Assembly (NCBI GenBank): GCA_002304445.1
Contig: NEVA01000015.1
Coordinates: 1 to 64,000 of the forward strand
Length of the DNA: 64,000 nucleotides
Direction of reading: 5' to 3'
Source: Opitutia bacterium Tous-C4FEB
GTDB taxonomy: Bacteria; Verrucomicrobiota; Verrucomicrobiia; Opitutales; Opitutaceae
The notes beneath the pieces were generated by a model. The model made no database searches, was not told the DNA's origin, and worked only from the letters and a program-made list of their open reading frames with translations. Position numbers and translations under genes: made by a program. Each line of letters opens with the position of its first letter. Position 1 is the first letter of the stretch. Shown here piece by piece: positions 13,723 through 25,189 of this stretch.

Positions 13723-13928
13723 GGTCGGGAGGGGATTGGAGGTAACAGCATCAAGTCTGCCGCAGCTGGAGCGGTCCGCAATCTTCCGTCGTGAATTTTG
13801 CGTAACATCGGCGCGTCGCACGTTTCGCCCCGGTCCCCGTGGCCCGGTCGTTCTTTTGCCTTGGTTTGCGCCCGGCGCCACATTGGCTCCTATCGAGCTC
13901 CTTCCGCCGCGCGTTCGCCTTCGTCACC

Positions 13929-16900
13929 ATGTGGATCGTCCTTTTTGCCCTTCGCTATAAATACACCGTCGCCGTCTTTGCGATTTTGATCGCGCTGTTC
14001 GGCGGACTGGCGATTCAGCGCACGTCCACCGATATCATGCCGCGGGTGGACAGCCCCGAGGTCATGCTCGTCTGGTCTTACGGCGGGTTGAATCCCACCG
14101 AGATGGCCGCGAAGATCACGTCCTTCTCCGAGACGGCCTCGCTCAACAACGTCGACGATGTGCTCGAACTCCGCTCTGAGACCATCAACGGCGTCGCGAT
14201 CGTGCGGCTGCGGTTCCAGCCCGGGGTAAACATCGAGCGCGCGCTCTCCCAGGTCACCGCCATCTCGCAGACGATTTTGCGCCGGATGCCTGCCGGTACC
14301 GTGCCGCCGATCATTGTCCAATCGAGCCCTTCGAGCGTGCCGATCATCCAGCTCGTGTTGTCGTCCGATACGCTCACCGACGGTGCGATCTTCGATTTTG
14401 CCCGGCTGACCATGCGAGCCCAGTTGCAGGAAATCGCCGGCCTGCGCCTCACCTTGCCCTACGGCGGCGCCCAGCGGCAGATCATGGTCGATTTGGATCC
14501 CGATGCGCTCAACGCCTACGGACTCTCCGCTTCGGATGTGAGCCGCGCCCTCGCCGCGCAGAACCAGACGCTGCCTTCCGGTTCCCTCCGCGCCGGTGGC
14601 CGTGATCTCGCGGTCGGCGTCAACGCCAGCCCCGTCTCCATCCCCGAGTTTCTCGACCTGCCGGTGCGCAACATCGATGGCCGGATCATTCTGCTGCGCG
14701 ATGTCGCCAACGTCCGCGACGGCGAGGCTTTCGGCACCAACATCGCCCGGCTTAACGGCCAAAACGCCGTCATCGTCACCGCCCTGAAACTCGGGAACAC
14801 GTCGACGCTCGAAATCATCGACGGGATCATGGCCCGCCTGCCGGCCATCCGCGCGTCCGCGCCTCCCGGCGTCAAGGTCGAGCCCATCTTCGACCAATCC
14901 GTCTTTGTCCGGTCGGCCGTCGACAACATCCTGCGCGAGATCGCCCTCGTGGGTGCGCTCGTGGCCCTCGTCGTTTTGCTGTTTCTCGGATCGTGGCGCT
15001 CGACGTTGATCGTCCTCACCTCGATTCCGCTCGCGCTGCTCTGCTCGATTTTTGGCCTCAGTCTCGCCGGCGCCACGTTCAATCTGATGTCCCTCGGCGG
15101 CCTCGCGCTCGCCATCGGTATCCTGGTGGACAACGCCCTCGTCGAAATCGAAAACATCAAGCGCCAGATCGCCTCCGGTAAAATCGTGCGCGATGCCATC
15201 GTCGACGGCGCACAACAGGTCGCCTTCCCCGAGTTCGTTTCCACCACCGGCATCTGCATCGTGTTTCTGCCGATCTTTCTGCTCTCCGGGACCGCCGCGT
15301 TTGTTTTCAAGCCTCTCGCGCTCGCCGTGATCTTTGCGATGGTCGCGAGCTACCTGCTCTCGCGCACGCTCGTGCCCACGCTCGCCTCGCTGCTGCTGCC
15401 CGCCGAGACCCGCGCCGAACGCGCCGACGCCGGTCGGGCGCCCCGAGGCTTGATGCGGCTGCATTACGCCATTGAACACGCCATCACCGCCCTTTCCGCC
15501 CGGCAGCACCGCATGCTCGATGTCCTCGTGGCGCGGCGTTGGATCATTCCGGTCATCGTGCTCGCGGTCGCGGGCCTCGGCGGCGTCGCCTGGAAATTTC
15601 TTGGCCGCGAGTTTTTCCCCGCCACCGATGCCGGACTCATGCGCGTCTTCGTGCGCCTGCCCGGCGGCACCCGCGTGGAAGAGACCGCGCGCCGTTTTGC
15701 CGACATCCAGCGCGCCATCCGCTCCGTGATTCCTCCGGCGGAACTCCGTTTCGTGGTCGAAAACATCGGGCCACCGACCGCGATCAATCTCGCTTGGGTC
15801 GAGAGCACCGTCGTCGGTCCCTACGACGGCGAGATTCTCATCCAACTCGCACCCGGTCATGCGCCCGTCGTCGGATACACGGAAAAATTGCGGCGGCTGC
15901 TTGCCGAGCAATTCCCCGAGGCGCAGTCGTTTTTCCGGCCGGCCGACACTACCAGCCAGACGCTCTCCGGCGGGGCGCCGACCGCGTTCGAAGTCCGCTT
16001 CGTCGGCCGCGATATTCCCGGGAACCTCGCGCTGGCCCAACGTCTCCGCGAGCGTCTCCGGGCCGTGCCGGGCGCCGTCGATGTGACGCTGCGCGAACTC
16101 CTCGGCGTGCCCGAATACTATTTCGAAATCGACCGCGTGCGTGCGGCCCGCTTTGGCCTCACCCAACAGGATATCGCCGGCGCACTCCTGACCGCGCTGG
16201 GCTCCGGGGGCAGCGTGGCGCCCACGTTCTGGGCCGATCCGAAAACCGGTTCATCCTACGAAGTGCAAGTTCAGGTGCCGCCCGCGCTCTTCCGCGACGC
16301 GGAGCAACTGCTCACCTTGCCCATGCGCCCCGCCGCCGGGGGACCACCGGTGATTTTCGGCGCGTTTGCCAAACTCAGCGAACGCCAGTCGCCCTCAAGT
16401 GTGTCGCGCACGACCTTGCTGCCCACGTTTACCGTGCTCGCCAACGTGCAGGGCACCGACCTGGGCTCCGTGCTCGACCGGCTCAATCCGATCCTCGCCG
16501 AGTTGCGCAAAGAGCAGAAACACGGCAATCGGATCGTCATCGCCGGCCAAGCCGCGCTGATGGAGTCGGCCTACCGTGAGCTCTTCGGCGGCCTCATTTT
16601 GTCCGCCGTGCTGATCTTCCTCGTGATGGTGGTGAACTTCCAATCGTGGGCGTTACCCTTGGCCGCGATCAGTGGTCTGCCGGTGGCCATCGCCGGGGCG
16701 TTCGTGGCGCTTTGGGTGACCGGCACCAACTTGAGCATCCCGGCGCTGATGGGGCTCATTATGGTCGTCGGTGTGTCCACAGCCAACAGCGTGCTGGTCA
16801 CTTCCTTCGCCCGCGATCTTTGGGCGGCCGGCGCGACCGGTGCCGAGGCCGCGATCACCTCCGCGACGACCCGCCTGCGCCCCGTCACGATGACGGCCCT

Positions 16901-17090
16901 CGCGATGATTCTCGGGGTGTTGCCCATGGCGCTCGGCCACGGCGAGGGCGGCGAGCAAAACGCCCCGCTCGGCCGCGCCGTGATCGGCGGTCTGCTCTTC
17001 GGCACGCTCGCCTCGCTCTTCGTCGTGCCTTTCATGTTCTCCGTCCTCAAGCGCCGCCCACCCGCGCCTGTCCCTCCTTCCGCGCCATGA
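13929..17090 (+). CDS. RND-family inner-membrane efflux transporter
   Basis: A 1053-residue proton-driven transporter with the RND plan: one N-terminal helix, a large periplasmic porter loop, a central helix bundle, a second large loop and a second bundle. The helix-4 motif reads GILVDNALVEIENI, where the first Asp of the usual DD proton-relay pair is kept and the second is Asn, as in many hydrophobe/amphiphile exporters. The ATG at 13929 gives MWIVLFALRYKYTVAVFAIL, the standard first helix. Its stop overlaps the start of the membrane-fusion gene (ATGA at 17087-17090). No outer-membrane channel gene is adjacent, so a channel elsewhere is probably used. Substrate unknown. Confidence 0.92.
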   Translation: MWIVLFALRYKYTVAVFAILIALFGGLAIQRTSTDIMPRVDSPEVMLVWSYGGLNPTEMAAKITSFSETASLNNVDDVLELRSETINGVAIVRLRFQPGVNIERALSQVTAISQTILRRMPAGTVPPIIVQSSPSSVPIIQLVLSSDTLTDGAIFDFARLTMRAQLQEIAGLRLTLPYGGAQRQIMVDLDPDALNAYGLSASDVSRALAAQNQTLPSGSLRAGGRDLAVGVNASPVSIPEFLDLPVRNIDGRIILLRDVANVRDGEAFGTNIARLNGQNAVIVTALKLGNTSTLEIIDGIMARLPAIRASAPPGVKVEPIFDQSVFVRSAVDNILREIALVGALVALVVLLFLGSWRSTLIVLTSIPLALLCSIFGLSLAGATFNLMSLGGLALAIGILVDNALVEIENIKRQIASGKIVRDAIVDGAQQVAFPEFVSTTGICIVFLPIFLLSGTAAFVFKPLALAVIFAMVASYLLSRTLVPTLASLLLPAETRAERADAGRAPRGLMRLHYAIEHAITALSARQHRMLDVLVARRWIIPVIVLAVAGLGGVAWKFLGREFFPATDAGLMRVFVRLPGGTRVEETARRFADIQRAIRSVIPPAELRFVVENIGPPTAINLAWVESTVVGPYDGEILIQLAPGHAPVVGYTEKLRRLLAEQFPEAQSFFRPADTTSQTLSGGAPTAFEVRFVGRDIPGNLALAQRLRERLRAVPGAVDVTLRELLGVPEYYFEIDRVRAARFGLTQQDIAGALLTALGSGGSVAPTFWADPKTGSSYEVQVQVPPALFRDAEQLLTLPMRPAAGGPPVIFGAFAKLSERQSPSSVSRTTLLPTFTVLANVQGTDLGSVLDRLNPILAELRKEQKHGNRIVIAGQAALMESAYRELFGGLILSAVLIFLVMVVNFQSWALPLAAISGLPVAIAGAFVALWVTGTNLSIPALMGLIMVVGVSTANSVLVTSFARDLWAAGATGAEAAITSATTRLRPVTMTALAMILGVLPMALGHGEGGEQNAPLGRAVIGGLLFGTLASLFVVPFMFSVLKRRPPAPVPPSAP

Positions 17091-18148
17091 ATTCTCTCCG
17101 CCTCGCCGCTCTGTTTGTCGTGCTCCTGCCTGTCGCCGCTTCGGCGCAGGGGAACCTCCAATTTGTGAAGCCTGAAGTGGCTCCGCCCGCCGAACCGCTC
17201 CGCCTGCCGGTGCGTACCGCGCCAGCCGAGCAGGCTTACATTTATTCCCGGGCCACCGGCCTGCTCGCCGAGCGCCGGGTGGATCTCGGCGATATCGTCC
17301 AAGCCGGTGACGTGCTCGCGGTCATCGCCGCGCCCGAGATCCAGCGCGCGGCCGAGCGCGCCGCCGCCGCCGTTGCCCAAGCCACTGCCCGCGCGGAACT
17401 CGCCGAGGCCAACGTCCGCCGCACCCGCGCCCTCGGCGAAAAAGCGGTCCTTTCCAACGCTGAGGCCGAGATCGGCGAGGCCAACGCCAAGACCGCCGCC
17501 GCCGATTTGCTGGCGGCGCAGGCCGATGCGAAGCGCCTCACCGAACTCGTCGCCTTCCAGCAGATCCGCGCGCCCTTCGATGCCCTCGTGGTCAACCGCC
17601 AGTTCGACCGCGGCGATTTCATCCCCGGCGATTCGACGACCAACGGTCGTTGGCTCTTCCATCTCGCGCGCGTCAACGAACTCCGCGGTCTGCTCGACGT
17701 CGCCCCCGCCACCGCCCTCGCGCTGCGTCCCGGCCAAGCCGCCGTGGTTGAATTCACCGAACTGCCGGGCAAAAAGTTTCCCGCCAAAGTCGCGCGCGCC
17801 GCCGGCCTGATTGACGCCGCTTCCGGCACGATGCGCGTCGAACTCACCTTGCCCAATCCCGAGCGCCAGATTCCCGCCGGGCTCAACGGCGTCGCGCTCA
17901 TCACGCCCGCCGGCGCGAACGCCCGCCTGCTGCGCGTGCCCGTAAACGCCATCGTCGTGCGCGATGGTCGCCAGCACGTCGCGATTGTGCGCGAGGGCAA
18001 AGTGGCCTTCGTCCCCGTGCGCACTGGGCGCAATACCGGCGCCCGCATCGAGGTGATCGAGGGCCTCGCGGCGGACGCCTCGATCATTGTGAACCCCAAC
18101 GGCCTCCTCCAAGAGGGCCAGCCCGTCCCGGCAGCGCCATCGCCTTAA
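17087..18148 (+). CDS. RND periplasmic adaptor (membrane-fusion protein)
   Basis: A 353-residue HlyD/AcrA-type adaptor linking the RND pump to an outer-membrane channel. It has a cleavable signal (MNSLRLAALFVVLLPVAASA), a biotinyl-lipoyl-like half-motif (ATGLLAERRVDLGDIVQAGD), a long Ala-rich coiled-coil hairpin from about residue 84 to 145, the second lipoyl half (IRAPFDALVVNRQFDRGDFI), a beta-barrel and a C-terminal MP domain. It overlaps the pump gene by four bases, so the two are cotranslated. The order pump then adaptor is the reverse of the common acrAB order. Confidence 0.9.
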   Translation: MNSLRLAALFVVLLPVAASAQGNLQFVKPEVAPPAEPLRLPVRTAPAEQAYIYSRATGLLAERRVDLGDIVQAGDVLAVIAAPEIQRAAERAAAAVAQATARAELAEANVRRTRALGEKAVLSNAEAEIGEANAKTAAADLLAAQADAKRLTELVAFQQIRAPFDALVVNRQFDRGDFIPGDSTTNGRWLFHLARVNELRGLLDVAPATALALRPGQAAVVEFTELPGKKFPAKVARAAGLIDAASGTMRVELTLPNPERQIPAGLNGVALITPAGANARLLRVPVNAIVVRDGRQHVAIVREGKVAFVPVRTGRNTGARIEVIEGLAADASIIVNPNGLLQEGQPVPAAPSP

Positions 18149-18288: not shown

Positions 18289-20124
18289 ATGCGTTTTTCG
18301 ACCTCATTTCGCCGCCGCCTCCAGCTGCTCAACCTGCCGGGCGCGCTGCTGCTGTTGCTTCTCCAACGCACCCCGGTTCTCCGGCTGTTGGTCGCGACTG
18401 AGCCCGCGGTCGTCGCCGCCCCAGCGGGTGCAGTGCTGAAATCCTCCGTCGCCGGTCTCGTGGGTCTCGGCGCGCTCCACTCGCGCGCGGGTGCGACCGA
18501 ACTCGTGACCAACGAACCGAGCCCCCTGCGCGCCACCGTCGGCGTCGCTGTTTCCACCGCGGCTTTTAGCCTCTCCGGCACCCAGACCCAGCCTTCGATT
18601 TGGAACGTCACCGGCTCCCTCCCCCCGGGTTTGTCGATTAACGGTCGCGCGACGCTCGGCACCTTTGCCGCGTCGGTGCTCGAGTTGACGGGCACCCCCA
18701 CCGCTGCCGGCACGTTTCAGCTCGGGATATCCGGTTCCGACCGCGGCTACACGTCGCCGTCGCTCCCGTATACAATCACCGTGGTCGCCGCCGGCACTCC
18801 GGCCACTTTCCCCGTGTTCTCCACGCAGCCAGTATCGGTGACCGTAGCGGCCGGCGCTTCGGTCACATTGACCGCGGCGGTCGCCGGTTCGCCGGCGCCC
18901 ACCTATCAATGGCGGCGATTCGGCTCAAACCTCGGTGGCCAGACGTCCGCCACGCTCATCCTCACCAATGTCCAACCTGCGGATGCCGGCGCCTACACGT
19001 TGGTTGCCACCAATTCCGCCGGCACCGCGACCAGCAACGCCGCGATTCTCACGGTCACCTCCGCCCCGGCCGGAGCGGCCCCCGTCGTCACGCTGCAGCC
19101 GGTCAGCATCACGGCGGCCCTCGGCGCACCTGTCGTGCTGACCGTGGCCGCGACCGGCGCACCGACGATTCAGTGGCGCAAGAACGGCGTGAATCTCCCC
19201 GGCGCAACCGCCGCGACCCTCGCCTTTTCCGCGCTCACCGCCGCCGACACCGCCAGCTACGACGCCGTGCTCACCAACGCCGCCGGCACGGAGTTCAGCG
19301 GCACCGCCGTGGTGATTGCCACCACCCCGCTCACCGCCCGCCTGCGCAACCTCTCGGTCCGCACCACCCTCGCCGCCGAGCAGATTCTCTTTGTCGGGCT
19401 CAACCTGGCGGGCGGCTCTAAAGACGTGCTGCTCCGCGCCGCCGGGCCCGGTCTCGGGGCTCTGGGTGTGGGCGGCACGATGGCCGATCCCCGGCTTGCG
19501 GTGTTCACGACAGACGCTCCTCCCGTACAGATCGCGCAGAACAACGACTGGTCCGGCAACGCTGCCGTCCGCGCGGCGAACGCCGCTCTTGGGGCTTTTC
19601 CCTTTCCCTCTGACGCAAGCCTCGACGCGGCTCTCCTCACTCCCATCGCCGGTGGTCGCACCGTGCAGGTTTCCGGCCCGACCGCTGGCGGCGTCATCGT
19701 GGAAGCCTACGACAACGGCTCGGGCAACGCCGTCCGCTTCACGAGCCTCTCTGCCCGCAACCTCGTCGGCACCGGCGCCGATCTGCTGTTCGTCGGGTTC
19801 ACCATCGACGGCCCCGGCACCAAGAATCTGCTCTTCCGTGCCGCGGGTCCCAGCTTGGGCGCCCTCGGCGTGCCGAACACACTCGTTGATCCCAAGCTCG
19901 AATTGTTCACGACGTCCACGCCGGCCGCGAAAATCGCGGAGAACGACACCTACGCCGCCGCGCTCGCGCCGCTTTTCCGGACCTTGGGTGCCTTCGACTT
20001 TGTGCCCGGGGCGAAGGATGCCGCGCTGGTTCTCAGCCTGCCTGCCGGCAGCTACACCGTCCAAGTCTCGGGTGCGAACAATGGCACCGGTGATGCTATC
20101 GTCGAAGTCTACGAGCTGCCGTAA
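18289..20124 (+). CDS. Ig-like domain surface protein A with tandem C-terminal module
   Basis: A 611-residue exported protein. The N terminus has a hydrophobic stretch (LLNLPGALLLLLLQRTP) and a second weakly hydrophobic segment ending HSRAGA before TEL, a plausible signal-peptidase AxA site about 70 residues in. Then come a putative-Ig domain (SLPPGLSI, LTGTPTAAGTFQLGISGSD), two I-set-like Ig domains (TLTAAVAGSPAPTYQWRR; VAATGAPTIQWRKNG) and two copies of a ~120-residue beta module (LFVGLNLAGGSKDVLLRAAG; LFVGFTIDGPGTKNLLFRAA) ending exactly at VEVYELP. It is a paralogue of the protein at 23342 and precedes the DUF3570 gene by 81 bases, so it may belong to that operon. Probably a surface or periplasmic scaffold; function unknown. 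Confidence 0.8.
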   Translation: MRFSTSFRRRLQLLNLPGALLLLLLQRTPVLRLLVATEPAVVAAPAGAVLKSSVAGLVGLGALHSRAGATELVTNEPSPLRATVGVAVSTAAFSLSGTQTQPSIWNVTGSLPPGLSINGRATLGTFAASVLELTGTPTAAGTFQLGISGSDRGYTSPSLPYTITVVAAGTPATFPVFSTQPVSVTVAAGASVTLTAAVAGSPAPTYQWRRFGSNLGGQTSATLILTNVQPADAGAYTLVATNSAGTATSNAAILTVTSAPAGAAPVVTLQPVSITAALGAPVVLTVAATGAPTIQWRKNGVNLPGATAATLAFSALTAADTASYDAVLTNAAGTEFSGTAVVIATTPLTARLRNLSVRTTLAAEQILFVGLNLAGGSKDVLLRAAGPGLGALGVGGTMADPRLAVFTTDAPPVQIAQNNDWSGNAAVRAANAALGAFPFPSDASLDAALLTPIAGGRTVQVSGPTAGGVIVEAYDNGSGNAVRFTSLSARNLVGTGADLLFVGFTIDGPGTKNLLFRAAGPSLGALGVPNTLVDPKLELFTTSTPAAKIAENDTYAAALAPLFRTLGAFDFVPGAKDAALVLSLPAGSYTVQVSGANNGTGDAIVEVYELP

Positions 20125-20205
20125 GATTCCTGCGACCTGCTCATCGCCGTCGCCCGCAGGCTTGCGGATCTCTTTTTTGTAACTCATTTCCGAAGCAATC
20201 GTTCG

Positions 20206-21366
20206 ATGACCCCTCCGCCCTCATCCCGCTCTGCCCGCGCCCTGCTGATTGCCTCAACCCTTGCGGTGCTCGCACCCCGAGGCGCCGTGGCCGAAAGCTC
20301 CGTCGCTTATAAATACTCCGACTACCGCGAGTCCGGCGGCCGCGTGGTGGTCGAGACGCAGACCGCGCTCATCGAGCAGACGTTTGGGATCGATTATCGC
20401 GCCCGCTTCACCGGCACGATCGACGCGATCGCCGGCGCCACGCCCACCGGCGAACCGGCGCCCGCCGGCAGCGATCAGGTCCGCCTCTCCCGGCTCAGCG
20501 ATCGGCGCAAGGCCTGGACCGGCGACCTCTCGCGCCAATTTTCCCGCGTCAACCTCGCCCTCGGTTTTGGCAACTCCCGCGAGAGCGACTACGTTTCCAA
20601 CGGCTGGTCGGTCAACGCGCTCACCGATTTCAACGGCAAAAACACCACGCTCCTCACCGGCGTCGCCGGCACCGCTGACGACGTGAAAGTATTCTTCCAA
20701 ACCGACCGCGAAAAGAAGCGCACCAACGATGTGATCGTCGGTGTCACCCAACTCCTCGATCCGCGCACCTCCGTCACGTTTAACCTCAGCTACGGCCGCT
20801 ACTCCGGTTACCTGAGCGATCCTTACAAACTCGTCGAAAAGCGGATCGAGGTCCTGCCCGGGATTTTTCTCCGGCAGACGTTTGGCGAAAACCGCCCGCG
20901 CGAACGCGAAAAACTCATCGCGCTCGCCGCGCTCAACCGCGCCTTTCCCACGCTTCACGGGGCCATCGACGGCAGCTACCGCTTTTTCGGCGACACCTTC
21001 GGCACCCAGGCCCACACCGTCGACCTCGCTTGGTTTCAGCGTTTGGGCGAAAAGGTGATTCTGCGGCCGGGCTTTCGCTTCTACGACCAGTCCGCCGCCG
21101 ATTTCTACATTTACCGCCTCGACGGGACCGCGGTGACCCCGGTGCGCAATCCCTCGCCGGCCGGTCCGTATTACTCGTCCGACTTTCGGGTGTCCGCGTT
21201 TCGTAGTTACAACACGGGCTTGAAGCTGATCTGGAATCCGACTCCCGCTTTGCAATTCGACGCCTTGCTGGAGCGCTACGAAATGCGCGGCCGCGATGGC
21301 GTGACCCCTGCCAGCGCCTACGTCCGCGCCACGGTCCTGACTCTCGGCGCCCGCTTCGCCTGGTAA
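20206..21366 (+). CDS. DUF3570 outer-membrane beta-barrel protein
   Basis: A 386-residue exported protein with a signal peptide ending GAVAES and the DUF3570 pattern: AYKYSDYRESGGRVVVE at the mature N terminus, alternating beta strands throughout, and a C-terminal aromatic strand YVRATVLTLGARFAW, typical of outer-membrane barrels. DUF3570 has no established function. It is followed by apbE-like, tlpA-like and DUF4266 genes on the same strand with short gaps (46, 60 and 47 bases), an arrangement I recognise as recurrent in Gram-negative genomes. The barrel may be the outer-membrane part of a flavin- or thiol-based envelope redox system. Confidence 0.8.
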   Translation: MTPPPSSRSARALLIASTLAVLAPRGAVAESSVAYKYSDYRESGGRVVVETQTALIEQTFGIDYRARFTGTIDAIAGATPTGEPAPAGSDQVRLSRLSDRRKAWTGDLSRQFSRVNLALGFGNSRESDYVSNGWSVNALTDFNGKNTTLLTGVAGTADDVKVFFQTDREKKRTNDVIVGVTQLLDPRTSVTFNLSYGRYSGYLSDPYKLVEKRIEVLPGIFLRQTFGENRPREREKLIALAALNRAFPTLHGAIDGSYRFFGDTFGTQAHTVDLAWFQRLGEKVILRPGFRFYDQSAADFYIYRLDGTAVTPVRNPSPAGPYYSSDFRVSAFRSYNTGLKLIWNPTPALQFDALLERYEMRGRDGVTPASAYVRATVLTLGARFAW

Positions 21367-21412
21367 ATTTCCGGCGATCATAAAGCGAAATTCATAAATC
21401 GGAATTTCTACC

Positions 21413-22402
21413 GTGCCACTCGTCCTTCCCAGTCACCGCGCCCCTCCGCCGCCCGCCGCCCAGGCGACGACCGATGTGCCGTTGCGCGTGTTGGCTTGGA
21501 CCGCGCTGGGCACGCGTTGCTCGGTCCAATACTCGGCCACCTCCGCGGCTCAGGCGCAGGCGTTCGAGACCGCTGCGGTCGGCTGGGTCGCGGCGTTTGA
21601 AGCGAAGTATTCCCGTTTCCGCCCCGACAGTCTGCTTTCCCGCATCAACGCCGCTGCCGGCCTCGCGCCCGTCGCCATCGACGCCGAGATGGAAGGCCTG
21701 CTCGCGCTCTGTGACCGGCTGCATTTCATGACGCAGGGCGTGCTCGATCCCACCGCGTTGCCGTTGCTGCGGCTCTGGGATTACAAGGCCGTGAATCCAC
21801 GCCTGCCCACCGAAGATGAACTCGTCGCAGCCCGTCGACTCGTCGGCTGGAAAAAAGTGCAACGTACTCCCGGCCACGTCTTCCTGCCCGAGCGTGGCAT
21901 GGCGCTCGACTTCGGCGGCTTTGGCAAAGAGTGGGCCGTGGACATCGTCGCCCAGATCGCGCGCGACCACGGGCTGCCGGCGGCGTTGGTTGATTTCGGC
22001 CACGATCTCCGCGCGTTCGGCGTGCCGCCCGGTCGCCCCGCGTGGCACATCGGTCTGGAAGATCCGGCCAATCCCGGTGCGACCAAGGGCAGTCTCGCGC
22101 TCACGCAAGGGCAGGGCGTCGCCTCGTCCGGTGATTATCTCCGCCGGGTCCTCATCGACGGCGTGCGTTACGGCCACATCGTCGACCCGCGCTCCGGCCG
22201 GCCGGTGGCCAACGGCTGCCTGCAAGCGACCGTCATCGCGCCCACCTGTCTCCAGGCCGGCGTGCTCGCGACCGCCGCCTTCGTCCTCGGTGTGACGCCC
22301 GGCCTCGAACTCATCCAAGCCCAGCCCGGCACCCACGGCCAGATTCTCACCGAAAAAACCCGCGCCCAAACCCGCGGCTTCTTTAATTACGTCGCCTCAT
22401 GA
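21413..22402 (+). CDS. FAD:protein FMN transferase-like (ApbE family)
   Basis: A 329-residue ApbE-family protein. ApbE enzymes attach FMN to Thr/Ser of extracytosolic redox proteins. Family marks are LGTRCSVQY near residue 31, FEAKYSRFRPDSLLSRIN near residue 60, the DFGGFGKEWAVD motif near 165-176 and HIVDPRSGRP near 254. Two departures stand out. The usual A-D-A-L-(A/S)-T motif, whose Asp binds magnesium, reads AGVLATA near residue 285, so that Asp is missing. The GTG start at 21413 gives no signal peptide or lipobox, and a TAA precedes it in frame, whereas most ApbE proteins are exported. Either it is a divergent active subfamily or it does something other than flavinylation. Confidence 0.8.
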   Translation: MPLVLPSHRAPPPPAAQATTDVPLRVLAWTALGTRCSVQYSATSAAQAQAFETAAVGWVAAFEAKYSRFRPDSLLSRINAAAGLAPVAIDAEMEGLLALCDRLHFMTQGVLDPTALPLLRLWDYKAVNPRLPTEDELVAARRLVGWKKVQRTPGHVFLPERGMALDFGGFGKEWAVDIVAQIARDHGLPAALVDFGHDLRAFGVPPGRPAWHIGLEDPANPGATKGSLALTQGQGVASSGDYLRRVLIDGVRYGHIVDPRSGRPVANGCLQATVIAPTCLQAGVLATAAFVLGVTPGLELIQAQPGTHGQILTEKTRAQTRGFFNYVAS

Positions 22403-22417
22403 CCTCTCCCGCAGTTG

Positions 22418-22523
22418 CCCACGAAAACACGAAAAATACGAAAAAATCCCCGACCTAAACCGATGAATTCATTCTGCTTCAGCCCTGTATTTTCCTCCTC
22501 CGCCTTTCGTGTCTTTCGTGGTG
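22418..22523. repeat. inverted repeat CCACGAAA-TTTCGTGG spanning the tlpA start
   Basis: The left arm (22418-22447, CCCACGAAAACACGAAAAAT then ACGAAAAAAT) is complementary, with a few mismatches, to the right arm (22502-22523, GCCTTTCGTGTCTTTCGTGG then TG). The right arm is translated as part of the TlpA-like signal peptide. A sister element with CACGGAA units is at 54938-55007. Confidence 0.65.
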
Positions 22524-22999
22524 CCTTCCTCGCCGCGCTCGCTCTCGCCCTTGCCGCCGGCGCCCGCGCCGAGATCAAAGTCGGCGGAGTTTTCCCGTCG
22601 CTCGCCTCCGTCGGACTCATCGGCGAGGTGCCCGACACCAAGGGCAAGATTTTGGTCGTCGATTTCTGGGCGTCGTGGTGCGCGCCGTGCAAAGCTGCGT
22701 TTCCTGCGCTCGGGAAAATCAACGCCGACTACGCGGCCCGCGGCGTTGTTCTGGTCGGCATCAGCGTCGATGAAAAACCCGCCGCCTATGCCGACTTCGT
22801 GAAGAAAATGGCCCCGACGTTTCTCACCTTGCACGACGCCTCGCAAACACTGGTGCGGGCCGTGGCGGTGCCCGCGATGCCCACGACCTATCTGATCGGT
22901 CGCGACGGCAAAGTGCGCTTCATCCACGCGGGCTACCAAGGCGAATCCACGGACAGGATCCTTCGCACCCAAATCGACAAGCTTCTCGCCGCGAATTAG
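22463..22999 (+). CDS. TlpA/ResA-like thioredoxin, exported
   Basis: A 178-residue thioredoxin-fold protein for thiol-disulfide exchange in the periplasm. After an N-terminal signal with hydrophobic core FLAALALALAAGARA it has VVDFWASWCAPCKAAFPAL, with the active-site WCAPC near residues 72-76, the central insertion GISVDEKPAAYADFVKK of TlpA/ResA proteins, and the cis-Pro loop AVPAMPTTYLIGRDGK. The ATG at 22463 is the only reasonable start; the codons for AFRVFRGAF in the signal come from a dispersed repeat arm. It sits between apbE-like and DUF4266 genes, where it could keep the terminal Cys pair of the DUF4266 lipoprotein reduced. That link is inference. Confidence 0.88.
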   Translation: MNSFCFSPVFSSSAFRVFRGAFLAALALALAAGARAEIKVGGVFPSLASVGLIGEVPDTKGKILVVDFWASWCAPCKAAFPALGKINADYAARGVVLVGISVDEKPAAYADFVKKMAPTFLTLHDASQTLVRAVAVPAMPTTYLIGRDGKVRFIHAGYQGESTDRILRTQIDKLLAAN

Positions 23000-23046
23000 T
23001 CGCTCGATCCGCTTTCTCCGCTATCCTCTTTCCCAACTCCAAAAAA

Positions 23047-23277
23047 ATGCGCTCCCGTCTCCTCCTCGCCCTGTTTGTCGCCTCGGCCGCCGCGTTGTTT
23101 TCCGGCTGCTCCACCGCCGTCCGCGTGCAACCGTGGGAACGCGCCACGCTCACCGATTACACGATGCGGCCCGACCGCGACCCGCTCGCCGTCGCCCTCG
23201 CCGAGCACACCTATTTCTCCCGCGAGTCGGCCACGGGCGGTCGCGGCGTGGGCGGCAGTGGCTGCGGTTGCAATTGA
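23047..23277 (+). CDS. DUF4266 small lipoprotein with Cys-rich tail
   Basis: A 76-residue lipoprotein: signal peptide with lipobox LFSGC (Cys21), then VQPWERATLTDYTMRPDRDP, a helical LAVALAEHTYFSRESA, and a glycine-rich tail GGRGVGGSGCGCN that ends with two cysteines. This is the DUF4266 pattern, usually encoded beside DUF3570 proteins. Function is not established. The C-terminal CxC could bind a metal or exchange disulfides with the TlpA-like protein encoded 47 bases upstream. It is the last of four closely spaced genes; the second Ig protein follows after 64 bases. Confidence 0.82.
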   Translation: MRSRLLLALFVASAAALFSGCSTAVRVQPWERATLTDYTMRPDRDPLAVALAEHTYFSRESATGGRGVGGSGCGCN

Positions 23278-23341
23278 GCCCGTTCCCTCCGGGCCGCGCG
23301 GCTGATAACATCGCTTTCTTTTCTCACCCTCATTCCTCCCC

Positions 23342-25189
23342 ATGAAATTCTCCCCTGCCTCCCTCCGTCGCCTGCACTGGTTGAACCTTCCCGGCACGCT
23401 CCTCATCGCCTTGCTCCAGCGCACGCCCGCGGTGCGCGTGGTCGCGACCGCTGCGGATACGGTCCTCTCATCGCCGGCGACTTCCGTGTTGAAGGCGGCC
23501 GTGGCTGGGCTCGGCTCTTTAGGGGCTTTGCACAGCCTCGCGGGCGCGACCGCACTGAGTCCTTCCGAACCGAGCCCGGCGACAGCGATGGCCGGCGTGG
23601 GCACGACCTTGGTGTTCGCTGTCACCGGGGCGCCAGCCTCGCCCCAATCGTATACGGTCGGCGGCAGCGTTCCGCCGGGGCTGACCTTTCGGGCCCTCGG
23701 TGGCGGGGGTGCCGGCGTGACGAGCGGGATCATCAACGCGTCGACAATTCAGCTTAGCGGCACGCCGACGGCTGCCGGCACTTTCACGATGTCCATCGTC
23801 GGGTGGCGAGGGGCTAACGGCACGTCTAATCAGTATAGCGCAAGCTACACAGTCGTTGTGTCTGGCCCGGCAAACACCGCGCCTTCAATTACTACGCAGC
23901 CCCTTGCGGGGACGGTCGCAGTCGGCTCGCCGGCTGCCTTGATCGCCGCCGTCGCGGGTACGCCGACGCCCACGCTGCAGTGGTTCAAAAATTCCGTGGC
24001 AATCCCCGGCGCGACGACCGAGCTGCTCACGTTTGCTTCGGCCACGCTCGCCGACGCCGGCAGCTACACCTTGGTCGCGACTAATTCCCAAGGCTCCGTG
24101 ACGAGCAATGCCGCGACGCTTACGGTGACTGGGGGCGTCGCGCGGCCTGAGGTCGTGGCCCATCCGACCAGCGTAGTACGCCCCTTGGGCGCTGGGGCGG
24201 CCTTAGCGATCGTGGCAACGGGCTCGCCGACTTACCAATGGCGGAAAAATGGCGTAGCTGTCGCTGGCGCTACCGCGGCGACCTTGTCGTTCGCCGCGCT
24301 CGCGGCGGCCGATACCGCCAGTTACGACGTCGTACTTACCAACGCCGCGGGCTCGATCACCAGCGACTCCGCCACCGTTGTCGTGGCGGCGCCCCTGACC
24401 GCAGTCCTGCGGAATCTCTCAGTCCGCACGACACTCGCAGCGAATCAAATTCTGATTGTCGGCGTCAATATGTCCGGCGCGGGCAAAGAGGTGCTTGTGC
24501 GTGCGGTGGGTCCGAGCCTCGGCGTTTTTGGTGTGCCTGGCACCATGGCCGATCCGCAGCTCGCCGTGTTTACGGCCGCGACGCCGCCGGTGCAGATCGC
24601 GCAAAACGATAACTGGGGCGGCAACGCCGCCGTCGCGGCGGCGAATCTTCGCCTTGGTGCGTTCGCACTGACCCCGAATACGAGTTTGGACGCCGCCCTC
24701 GTGACAACGATTGCGGGCGGACGTACCGTGCAAGTTTCCGGCCCGACTGCGGGCACGGTGATCGTGGAAGCCTACGACGCCGGGGCGGGCAACGCAGCCC
24801 GCTTCACCAGCGTGGCGGCGCGCAACCTCGTGGGTACGGGGGGTGATGTTTTGATTGCGGGCTTCACAGTTGATGGCACCGGCTCGAAAAACCTGCTGAT
24901 CCGCGCCGCCGGCCCCAGCCTCGGTGCGCTCGGAGTACCCGGCACACTCGTTGATCCCAAGCTCGAAATTTTCACGGCGACTACGGTGCCGGTGAAGGTG
25001 GCGGAAAATGACAACTTCTCGGGTGCTGTAGATACGTTGGCCAGAACGCTCGGAGGGTTTGGCTTTGTACCCGGTGCGAGGGACGCGGCGATTCTCGTCA
25101 GTCTGCCCGCCGGGGGTTACACCGTGCAAGTTTCCGGCCTCAACAACGGCACCGGCGAAGCGATCATCGAAGTCTACGAAGTGCCGTAA
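23342..25189 (+). CDS. Ig-like domain surface protein B with tandem C-terminal module
   Basis: A 615-residue paralogue of the protein at 18289. The N terminus repeats the same layout: LNLPGTLLIALLQRTPAVRV, then SVLKAAVAGLGSLGALHSLAGA before TALS. It carries a putative-Ig domain (QLSGTPTAAGTFTMSIVGW), two Ig-like domains (LIAAVAGTPTPTLQWFKNS; AIVATGSPTYQWRKNGVAV) and two copies of the C-terminal module (ILIVGVNMSGAGKEVLVRAV; VLIAGFTVDGTGSKNLLIRA), ending IEVYEVP. Codon use in the middle (23700-24400) is less GC-rich than in its paralogue, hinting at independent history or relaxed constraint. With protein A it brackets the DUF3570 cluster. Function unknown; probably surface-exposed. Confidence 0.8.
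   Translation: MKFSPASLRRLHWLNLPGTLLIALLQRTPAVRVVATAADTVLSSPATSVLKAAVAGLGSLGALHSLAGATALSPSEPSPATAMAGVGTTLVFAVTGAPASPQSYTVGGSVPPGLTFRALGGGGAGVTSGIINASTIQLSGTPTAAGTFTMSIVGWRGANGTSNQYSASYTVVVSGPANTAPSITTQPLAGTVAVGSPAALIAAVAGTPTPTLQWFKNSVAIPGATTELLTFASATLADAGSYTLVATNSQGSVTSNAATLTVTGGVARPEVVAHPTSVVRPLGAGAALAIVATGSPTYQWRKNGVAVAGATAATLSFAALAAADTASYDVVLTNAAGSITSDSATVVVAAPLTAVLRNLSVRTTLAANQILIVGVNMSGAGKEVLVRAVGPSLGVFGVPGTMADPQLAVFTAATPPVQIAQNDNWGGNAAVAAANLRLGAFALTPNTSLDAALVTTIAGGRTVQVSGPTAGTVIVEAYDAGAGNAARFTSVAARNLVGTGGDVLIAGFTVDGTGSKNLLIRAAGPSLGALGVPGTLVDPKLEIFTATTVPVKVAENDNFSGAVDTLARTLGGFGFVPGARDAAILVSLPAGGYTVQVSGLNNGTGEAIIEVYEVP

Follow-up and report, generated by a model that had tools for sequence, protein, structure and literature searches.

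The locus considered here occupies positions 18289-25189 of a 64,000-nucleotide window, the whole stretch of DNA that was analysed, taken from contig NEVA01000015.1 of Opitutia bacterium Tous-C4FEB. The genome of this organism (G000; G-numbers denote genomes and L-numbers loci throughout) is a 3.76 Mb draft of 39 contigs that is 96.3% complete. Six genes on the forward strand, separated by gaps of 81, 46, 12, 47 and 64 bases, encode in order an immunoglobulin-like (Ig) protein, Ig-A, followed by DUF3570, ApbE, TlpA, DUF4266 and a second Ig protein, Ig-B, and together make up a candidate flavinylation system:

18289..20124, + strand: Ig-A, with an N-terminal region ending in HSRAGAT, two Ig_3 domains and C-terminal repeats; candidate acceptor T70, codon 18496-18498
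20206..21366, + strand: DUF3570 outer-membrane barrel (Pfam E 3.6e-61) with one flavinylation-like site, DAIAGATP; T79, codon 20440-20442
21413..22402, + strand: ApbE, a flavin adenine dinucleotide (FAD):protein flavin mononucleotide (FMN) transferase without a signal peptide (Pfam E 2.9e-68), its N-terminus free of any hydrophobic stretch
22415..22999, + strand: TlpA/ResA-like exported thioredoxin (Pfam Redoxin 1.5e-18) with the active site WCAPC; TTG start uncertain
23047..23277, + strand: DUF4266 small predicted lipoprotein (Pfam E 4.4e-21) ending in GCGCN
23342..25189, + strand: Ig-B, a paralogue of Ig-A (Pfam Ig_3)
23342..23560, + strand: N-terminal QRTP...GAT region of Ig-B with the motif HSLAGAT; candidate flavin acceptor T70, codon 23549-23551

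Both the run of six same-strand genes with short gaps and the recurrence of the DUF3570/ApbE/TlpA/DUF4266 set had been claimed in the original prediction, and both are borne out, the former by the coordinates and by Pfam matches for each gene, the latter by the presence of the set in many relatives. The recurrence of this core therefore reflects more than chance. Pfam confirms DUF3570 beside ApbE (PF12094, PF02424), and the window also holds the thioredoxin-like WCAPC protein, which matches the NCBIfam ResA model below its cut-off, and a DUF4266 protein with a C-terminal CxC. The latter starts, as judged by eye, with a lipobox-like LFSGC and is the sole copy found in the genome. Two features go beyond the original prediction, namely the missing signal peptide of ApbE and the N-terminal region, distinct from any Ig domain, that is common to both Ig proteins.

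Linkage of the Ig proteins to the operon

Ig-A and Ig-B share an N-terminal region of about 75 residues that is not an Ig domain and has no match in Pfam or NCBIfam; residues 1-176 of Ig-B are likewise without a Pfam match. A profile of this region recovers 61 copies in 52 of 62 loci from relatives, all of which had been fetched around DUF4266 matches. Three sets of DUF4266 loci were tallied, from relatives (n=61), named loci (n=73) and the wider phylum (n=26), the first two of which overlap. A region-bearing gene lies directly downstream of DUF4266 in 41/61, 56/73 and 9/26 of them, respectively; a further 10, 6 and 0 have the region at another place in the locus, the partner position is cut by a contig end in 3, 2 and 0, and no partner is seen in 7, 9 and 17. 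Five of the seven partnerless loci from relatives belong to genomes that have the region elsewhere, L036 has a diverged copy below threshold and L092 has none. Among the nine partnerless named loci the region is found elsewhere in the genome for five and also for L159 and L174 (f8 genomes G135 and G096), L143 has none and the ninth is L182. The 17 partnerless phylum loci are the ten whose DUF3570 has two sites, discussed below, together with L240 and six loci of a distant type. The locus sets overlap, since some genomes entered by two routes, the genomes are related and unlinked pairs were assigned to genomes by hand; the clustered counts given below are the fairer measure.

Co-occurrence extends to whole genomes. 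A profile of 49 regions detects the region in 53 of 141 relatives, as compared with 57 for DUF4266 in the same genomes: 51 have both, 6 have DUF4266 only, 2 have the region only and 82 have neither (Fisher 5e-29, kinship ignored). The profile was made from DUF4266-linked copies and may miss unlike ones. Three of the DUF4266-only genomes (G115, G124 and G132) carry diverged region copies beside the operon. Of the others, G028 has only part of DUF4266, close to the end of a contig, G058 has a DUF4266 match weaker than the family cut-off, and in G042 the 1.1 kb that follow DUF4266 contain no partner. Both region-only genomes are incomplete (81% and 84%). ApbE is present in 53/53 region-bearing genomes as against 48/88 of those without the region. 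Among 387 genomes from the phylum, 42 contain DUF4266 and 27 contain the region, 25 of the latter alongside DUF4266; the matches in the remaining two, G350 and G393, contain in-frame stops in genomes without DUF4266, were taken as false and are counted as region-only in the phylum association test. Region copies number 1-4 per genome.

Linkage and co-occurrence together rule out the idea that the Ig genes are chance neighbours, and on these comparative grounds the Ig proteins look like a working part of the system. The suggestion that they may be a lineage-specific surface addition thus holds as regards lineage, since they occur in several families of the phylum; they do not appear to be a mere addition, being nearly always found with the system and carrying a flavin-like site. 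Trios of DUF3570, ApbE and an Ig partner, with no TlpA or DUF4266 in the fetched stretch, are also seen in L137 (G019), L186, L189 and L190.

A candidate flavin motif in the Ig region

The shared region has the form QRTP...[HDNQ]xx[ASTV]GA[TS], with the QRTP and GAT blocks spaced about 40 residues apart. The second block resembles the ApbE motif, D-x-x-[S/T]-G-A-[S/T], for which a review describes a minor effect of changing D to A, a lowering of flavinylation to a degree given as about 50% on changing G to A or A to V, and abolition on changing T to A (PMC12052999). Residues were counted in a profile alignment of 134 unique regions, the profile itself containing the motif, in place of an earlier regular-expression tally that was biased by its own selection. 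Position 1 is H in 84, D in 22, N in 20 and Q in 8, and position 4 is A in 86, S in 22, T in 19 and V in 7. The glycine is kept in 132 and the alanine in 133, the acceptor is T in 123 and S in 11, and GA[ST] is intact in 131. The relaxed motif with its T/S acceptor is found in 131 of the 134 Ig regions, and apbE is linked to the Ig genes.

Some copies carry the full ApbE consensus (GIDTLSGAS, YDTVTGAT, CDTLSGAT). In lineages with an otherwise diverged N-terminus the motif is retained directly downstream of DUF4266: THALSGATTEV and similar sequences are found in marine Opitutales, and GID[STR]LSGAS in Akkermansiaceae and Verrucomicrobiales records. Diverged copies recognised by adjacency only keep the motif in 15 of 19 cases (L148-L158, L160, L162, L179 and L194; not L201, L202, L207 and L220), and four of these (L160, L162, L179 and L194) have it in its strict form. 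The DUF3570 proteins of the same loci have the strict motif in 71/143 and the relaxed motif in 122/143 (ungapped), with A at position 4 in 40 of 160 rows; the motif is therefore relaxed in a like manner in the Ig region and in DUF3570, a family with a demonstrated substrate. The Ig proteins look like ApbE substrates by their motif, and they are not filed as such, the window copies lacking its strict form.

DUF3570 and the number of flavin sites

Alignment shows a single site in the window DUF3570 and in each of those of its relatives; a second site was looked for in the window protein and none was found. The AlphaFold2 model of the protein is an 18-strand barrel (mean predicted local distance difference test score 94.5), in which strand 3 (model residues 40-56) ends in the site and a 13-residue loop follows. 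All of the 50 Foldseek matches listed for this model are outer-membrane barrels. Turns after even-numbered strands are 2-5 residues long, and loops after odd-numbered strands 5, 13, 2, 8, 7, 5, 4, 36 and 11. Outer-membrane barrels usually have their termini and short turns on the inside, and the site is for that reason placed, from the strand list rather than the coordinates of the model, at the probable outer end of the barrel.

The motifs of the two proteins vary together. No partner (0/41 groups) shows S or T at position 4 when that position is A or V in DUF3570, as opposed to 57/92 otherwise. After clustering at 65% identity the figures are 0/12 and 24/31 (counts 24/7/0/12, Fisher 3e-6), and at 55% they are 0/3 and 14/16 (p 0.01). 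This coupling is consistent with one enzyme reading both proteins, but shared ancestry also plays a part in it. No such matching is found at position 6 of the Akkermansiaceae-like loci, which varies in both proteins out of step (Q in DUF3570 with A in the partner, E or M in DUF3570 with Q in the partner), and the odd f8 DUF3570 sites (GSTP, GTTP) are not mirrored in partners that keep GA[TS]. DUF3570 sites with Q, E or M for the alanine before the acceptor (SGQT, SGET, SGMT) are seen in L160, L162, L179, L194, L201, L202, L207 and L220, all Akkermansiaceae- or Verrucomicrobiales-type records.

The presence of the Ig partner is also complementary to the number of sites in DUF3570. The longer DUF3570 proteins of other Verrucomicrobial families have, after the first site, a second GAT (7/10) or AAT (3/10), which in the four sequences viewed lies within a proline- and alanine-rich insertion; in one of these ten (L231) the gene is split over frames. 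In the phylum sample the region (model A1) is present in 0/10 of the two-site genomes versus 25/26 genomes of one-site lineages, which include G009, whose DUF3570 lies off its contig and was not seen, and exclude G350 and G393. The frames listed downstream of DUF4266 in the two-site genomes contain no motif. Three Pelagicoccus genomes and Verrucomicrobiae bacterium DG1235 have a one-site DUF3570 without an adjacent partner, and a check set beforehand, a genome-wide search, found the region elsewhere in 4/4 of them, in 1-3 copies each. The same search, whose model misses the diverged partners of L160 and L201, found two copies in the genome of L163.

An ApbE without a signal peptide

Extracytosolic ApbE proteins are marked by a signal peptide or lipobox, and neither is found in the window ApbE: its open frame begins only 15 bases before the GTG start and contains no hydrophobic stretch. 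By a simple hydropathy rule 12 of the 159 ApbE frames in the loci pass, seven of which belong to the distant type (L241, L244-L246), to Hymenobacter (L260) or to non-operon copies (L081, L261). This leaves 5/152 of operon type (L063, L154, L208, L216 and L223). Among 15 ApbE proteins encoded elsewhere in G000 and in related genomes 10 pass the rule, and inspection by eye finds a signal peptide or lipobox in 12, including two of the four further ApbE proteins of the window genome (L270, L271). Flavin attachment before export is therefore implied for the operon. Eight region-bearing genomes have exactly one ApbE, which is the operon's own except in G039, and in six of these eight no FMN_bind protein is present.

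A DUF3570 gene is also found beside apbE outside the phylum. Four plasmid DUF3570 records are known from this analysis (three Vibrio, one Hymenobacter), and a Vibrio megaplasmid (NZ_CP045356.1, ~1409826; L259) holds TlpA-like, DUF4266, DUF3570 and signal-less ApbE frames in a stretch to which the plasmid table assigns no gene. Judged by eye, the ApbE encoded next to DUF3570 in Vibrio lacks a signal peptide.

Proposed mechanism and alternatives

It is proposed, with moderate confidence and on comparative sequence grounds, that the locus is the Verrucomicrobial form of the DUF3570/DUF4266 flavinylation system, in which the Ig proteins serve as further flavinylated electron carriers. The signal-less ApbE would attach FMN in the cytoplasm to a threonine of two kinds of preprotein, the DUF3570 protein at its one site, T79, and the Ig partner at T70, at the end of its N-terminal hydrophobic region. 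Both would then be exported. DUF3570 would fold as an outer-membrane barrel whose strand 3 bears the flavin at its outer end, and each Ig protein would present its flavin on an Ig-like stalk, at the N-terminal tip. Electrons, probably from a DsbD-type donor, may reach both flavins by way of TlpA and of DUF4266, the CxC lipoprotein, and would leave them for an acceptor at the envelope or beyond it. Proteins bearing an adduct as bulky as FMN can be translocated by Sec. A broader version of this proposal is put forward only tentatively: that these are a new class of natural flavin-tagged proteins, Ig-like envelope proteins with a linear N-terminal ApbE site, flavinylated in the cytoplasm before Sec export, which stand in for the loop-borne second flavin of other DUF3570 proteins and would form, with a DUF3570 flavin on the outer face of the barrel, a flavin-based electron route to the cell surface.

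Several observations weigh against the proposal. The strict motif DxxS/TGAS/T is present in 5/134 regions only, and both window copies, HSRAGAT and HSLAGAT, depart from it at position 1 (H) and at position 4 (A). GA[ST] is broken in three regions (SAAT, SAAT and TGSS), four diverged partners have SGQT or SGQS, and one DG1235 copy has R at position 1. Model A1 was built from DUF4266-adjacent regions, so that finding them there is partly built in. The searches of the genomes of L143 (G489) and L092 (G042) yielded no partner, and neither did that of G342, the lone one-site genome of the phylum sample without one. An FMN_bind protein is present in two of the eight single-ApbE genomes (G072, G047). 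No DsbD occurs among the scanned window genes and no DsbD_TM was found in G000. To our knowledge there is no precedent for an ApbE acting before Sec export. Finally, signal peptidase could possibly cut at the motif itself, AGA|T, and the Ig domain that is modelled with confidence starts right there, as would be the case with a cleaved signal peptide.

In the partner's place in G342, directly downstream of DUF4266, a 1564-residue frame (L240, 9093-13784) has one CxxCH haem motif near its N-terminus; this is one case, though a suggestive one, in which haem perhaps stands in for flavin.

The possible cut and the start of the Ig domain lead to the chief alternative, namely that the region serves only as a long, specialised signal peptide, with cleavage at AGA|T, and that the Ig proteins are surface proteins co-expressed with a redox operon and bear no flavin. 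[SATV]GA|T is a site that signal peptidase would accept, most copies have a basic residue and a hydrophobic run ahead of the motif, and the AlphaFold2 model of Ig-B residues 1-176 has low-confidence helices up to residue 66 and a confident Ig-like domain from about T70. An anchor and a cleaved signal would suit this model equally well. Signal peptidase, however, would not be expected to fix the glycine at -2 (132/134) and the T/S acceptor (134/134), and in the DUF3570 and TlpA proteins of the same loci both positions vary by a crude count (the count covering 21 sites in the 31 anchorable of about 160 DUF3570 frames, and 123 of 128 for TlpA). A similarly crude control found [STAV]GA[TS] at the first AxA in 0/231 other signal-peptide-like frames, which were mechanical and many of them spurious; both counts speak against AGAT being an ordinary A-x-A end. 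The tie to ApbE and DUF3570, the complementarity with two-site DUF3570 and the D at position 1 in several deeper lineages are also left unexplained, and a signal peptide alone is regarded as rather unlikely. Foldseek adds nothing functional, since among the 50 matches listed for each of the DUF3570 and Ig-B models there are only generic barrels and Ig folds.

Electron flow might also be reversed, with the envelope flavins oxidising thiols or an outside donor, for instance to form disulfides or to defend against oxidants. Both flavins and CxC/CxxC pairs work reversibly, and DsbD was found neither in the window cluster nor in G000. Against this direction, the thioredoxin resembles, albeit by a match below cut-off, the ResA/TlpA type, which is usually reducing. 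DsbD is found in 128/141 relatives, and in G079 and G085 it is encoded about 10 kb or less from the operon. Published clusters also include DsbD (PMC8238504). Given the 128 relatives, the missing DsbD is probably a gap in the assembly rather than a true loss. Reverse flow is considered unlikely.

That QRTP...GAT is instead a dedicated processing or sorting signal for some peptidase, its likeness to the ApbE motif being convergent, is very improbable: two conserved blocks spaced by about 40 residues, in a region that each genome has in 1-4 proteins, would suit such a signal, but the six genes include no peptidase or sortase (the loci were not searched for peptidases in general), the M16 peptidase near the window operon recurs only in L051 and L054 of the 62 loci, and an ApbE whose motif fits is at hand.

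If Ig proteins are indeed flavinylated by the operon's ApbE, they would constitute a new substrate class for protein flavinylation, covalent attachment of flavin could precede passage through the inner membrane, and a system of uncertain purpose would gain a partner protein. QRTP...GAT would serve as a simple search mark for such proteins in Verrucomicrobiota.

Genomic surroundings

Just upstream on the same strand, at 13839-18148 of the window, lie an RND pump and an HlyD-type adaptor. A high-identity RND/HlyD pair recurs in L051 only among the 62 loci of relatives, with weak pump matches in L064. The M16 peptidase lies downstream on the opposite strand, convergent with Ig-B; many of the stretches in which the recurrence of pump and peptidase was scored end within about 10 kb. 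The C-terminal domains of Ig-A (18289-20124) and Ig-B (23342-25189) have a weak likeness, below cut-off, to NCBIfam NF038127 (DVUA0089 family). The genome also has another flavinylation locus (G000:C34:26889-28801; L270), in which an FMN_bind protein is encoded close to an ApbE that does have a signal peptide.

Relation to known flavinylation systems

The DUF3570/ApbE/thioredoxin-like/DUF4266 set appears in a survey of extracytosolic flavinylation (Meheust et al. 2021, eLife; PMC8238504). According to this survey, the ApbE of Chlorobium luteolum flavinylates the organism's DUF3570 protein, which has two such motifs, clusters combine DsbD, a thioredoxin-like protein and DUF4266, with 316 clusters lacking DsbD, and the function of the DUF3570/DUF4266 system, one of flavinylation and thiol electron transfer, is called uncertain. 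The original prediction was thus right to point to such a survey and to an undefined end function. It cannot be upheld in taking the set for an undescribed system, as the survey names it, shows one flavinylated DUF3570 and places it with DsbD. The core is of a known kind, and what is new is the partner family with its candidate flavin tag, the complementarity in site number and the signal-less ApbE. 'Verrucomicrob' occurs nowhere in the main text of PMC8238504, PMC11334425 mentions neither DUF3570 nor immunoglobulin, the one paper found to join flavinylation with Verrucomicrobia concerns, by its title, another phylum, and no description of the Ig partners as flavoproteins was found in the literature, subscription papers and preprints being outside the scope of the search.

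Compared with the published DUF3570/DUF4266 'DsbD systems', the window locus is alike in its four core families, in the ApbE-type site of DUF3570 and in the CxC end of DUF4266. It differs in that its DUF3570 has one site whereas the published protein has two, in that its ApbE has no signal peptide and its cluster no DsbD (which a subset of the published ones contain), and in the addition of an Ig partner with a flavin-like site, which goes unmentioned in the accessible text of that survey (PMC8238504). The Ig region shares with the known ApbE substrates (FMN_bind proteins, NqrC, RnfG, NosR, PceC, DUF2271, Flavodoxin_4 and FMN_red), as described in PMC8238504, PMC12052999 and PMC11334425, a short [S/T]GA[S/T]-like motif near a cognate apbE. 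In contrast to them it lies outside any Pfam family, and its motif ends an N-terminal hydrophobic stretch before an Ig-like domain.

A linear motif is also sufficient in the Flavin-tag, an engineered 7-residue ApbE tag that works best at a terminus (PMC12052999); the Ig motif would be a natural counterpart, relaxed at positions 1 and 4. The window ApbE is also like the cytosolic ApbE of Klebsiella, which in the same source has no signal peptide. The substrate there, however, is a soluble fumarate reductase, flavinylated by a cytoplasmic enzyme (PMC12052999), whereas the substrates proposed here would be exported.

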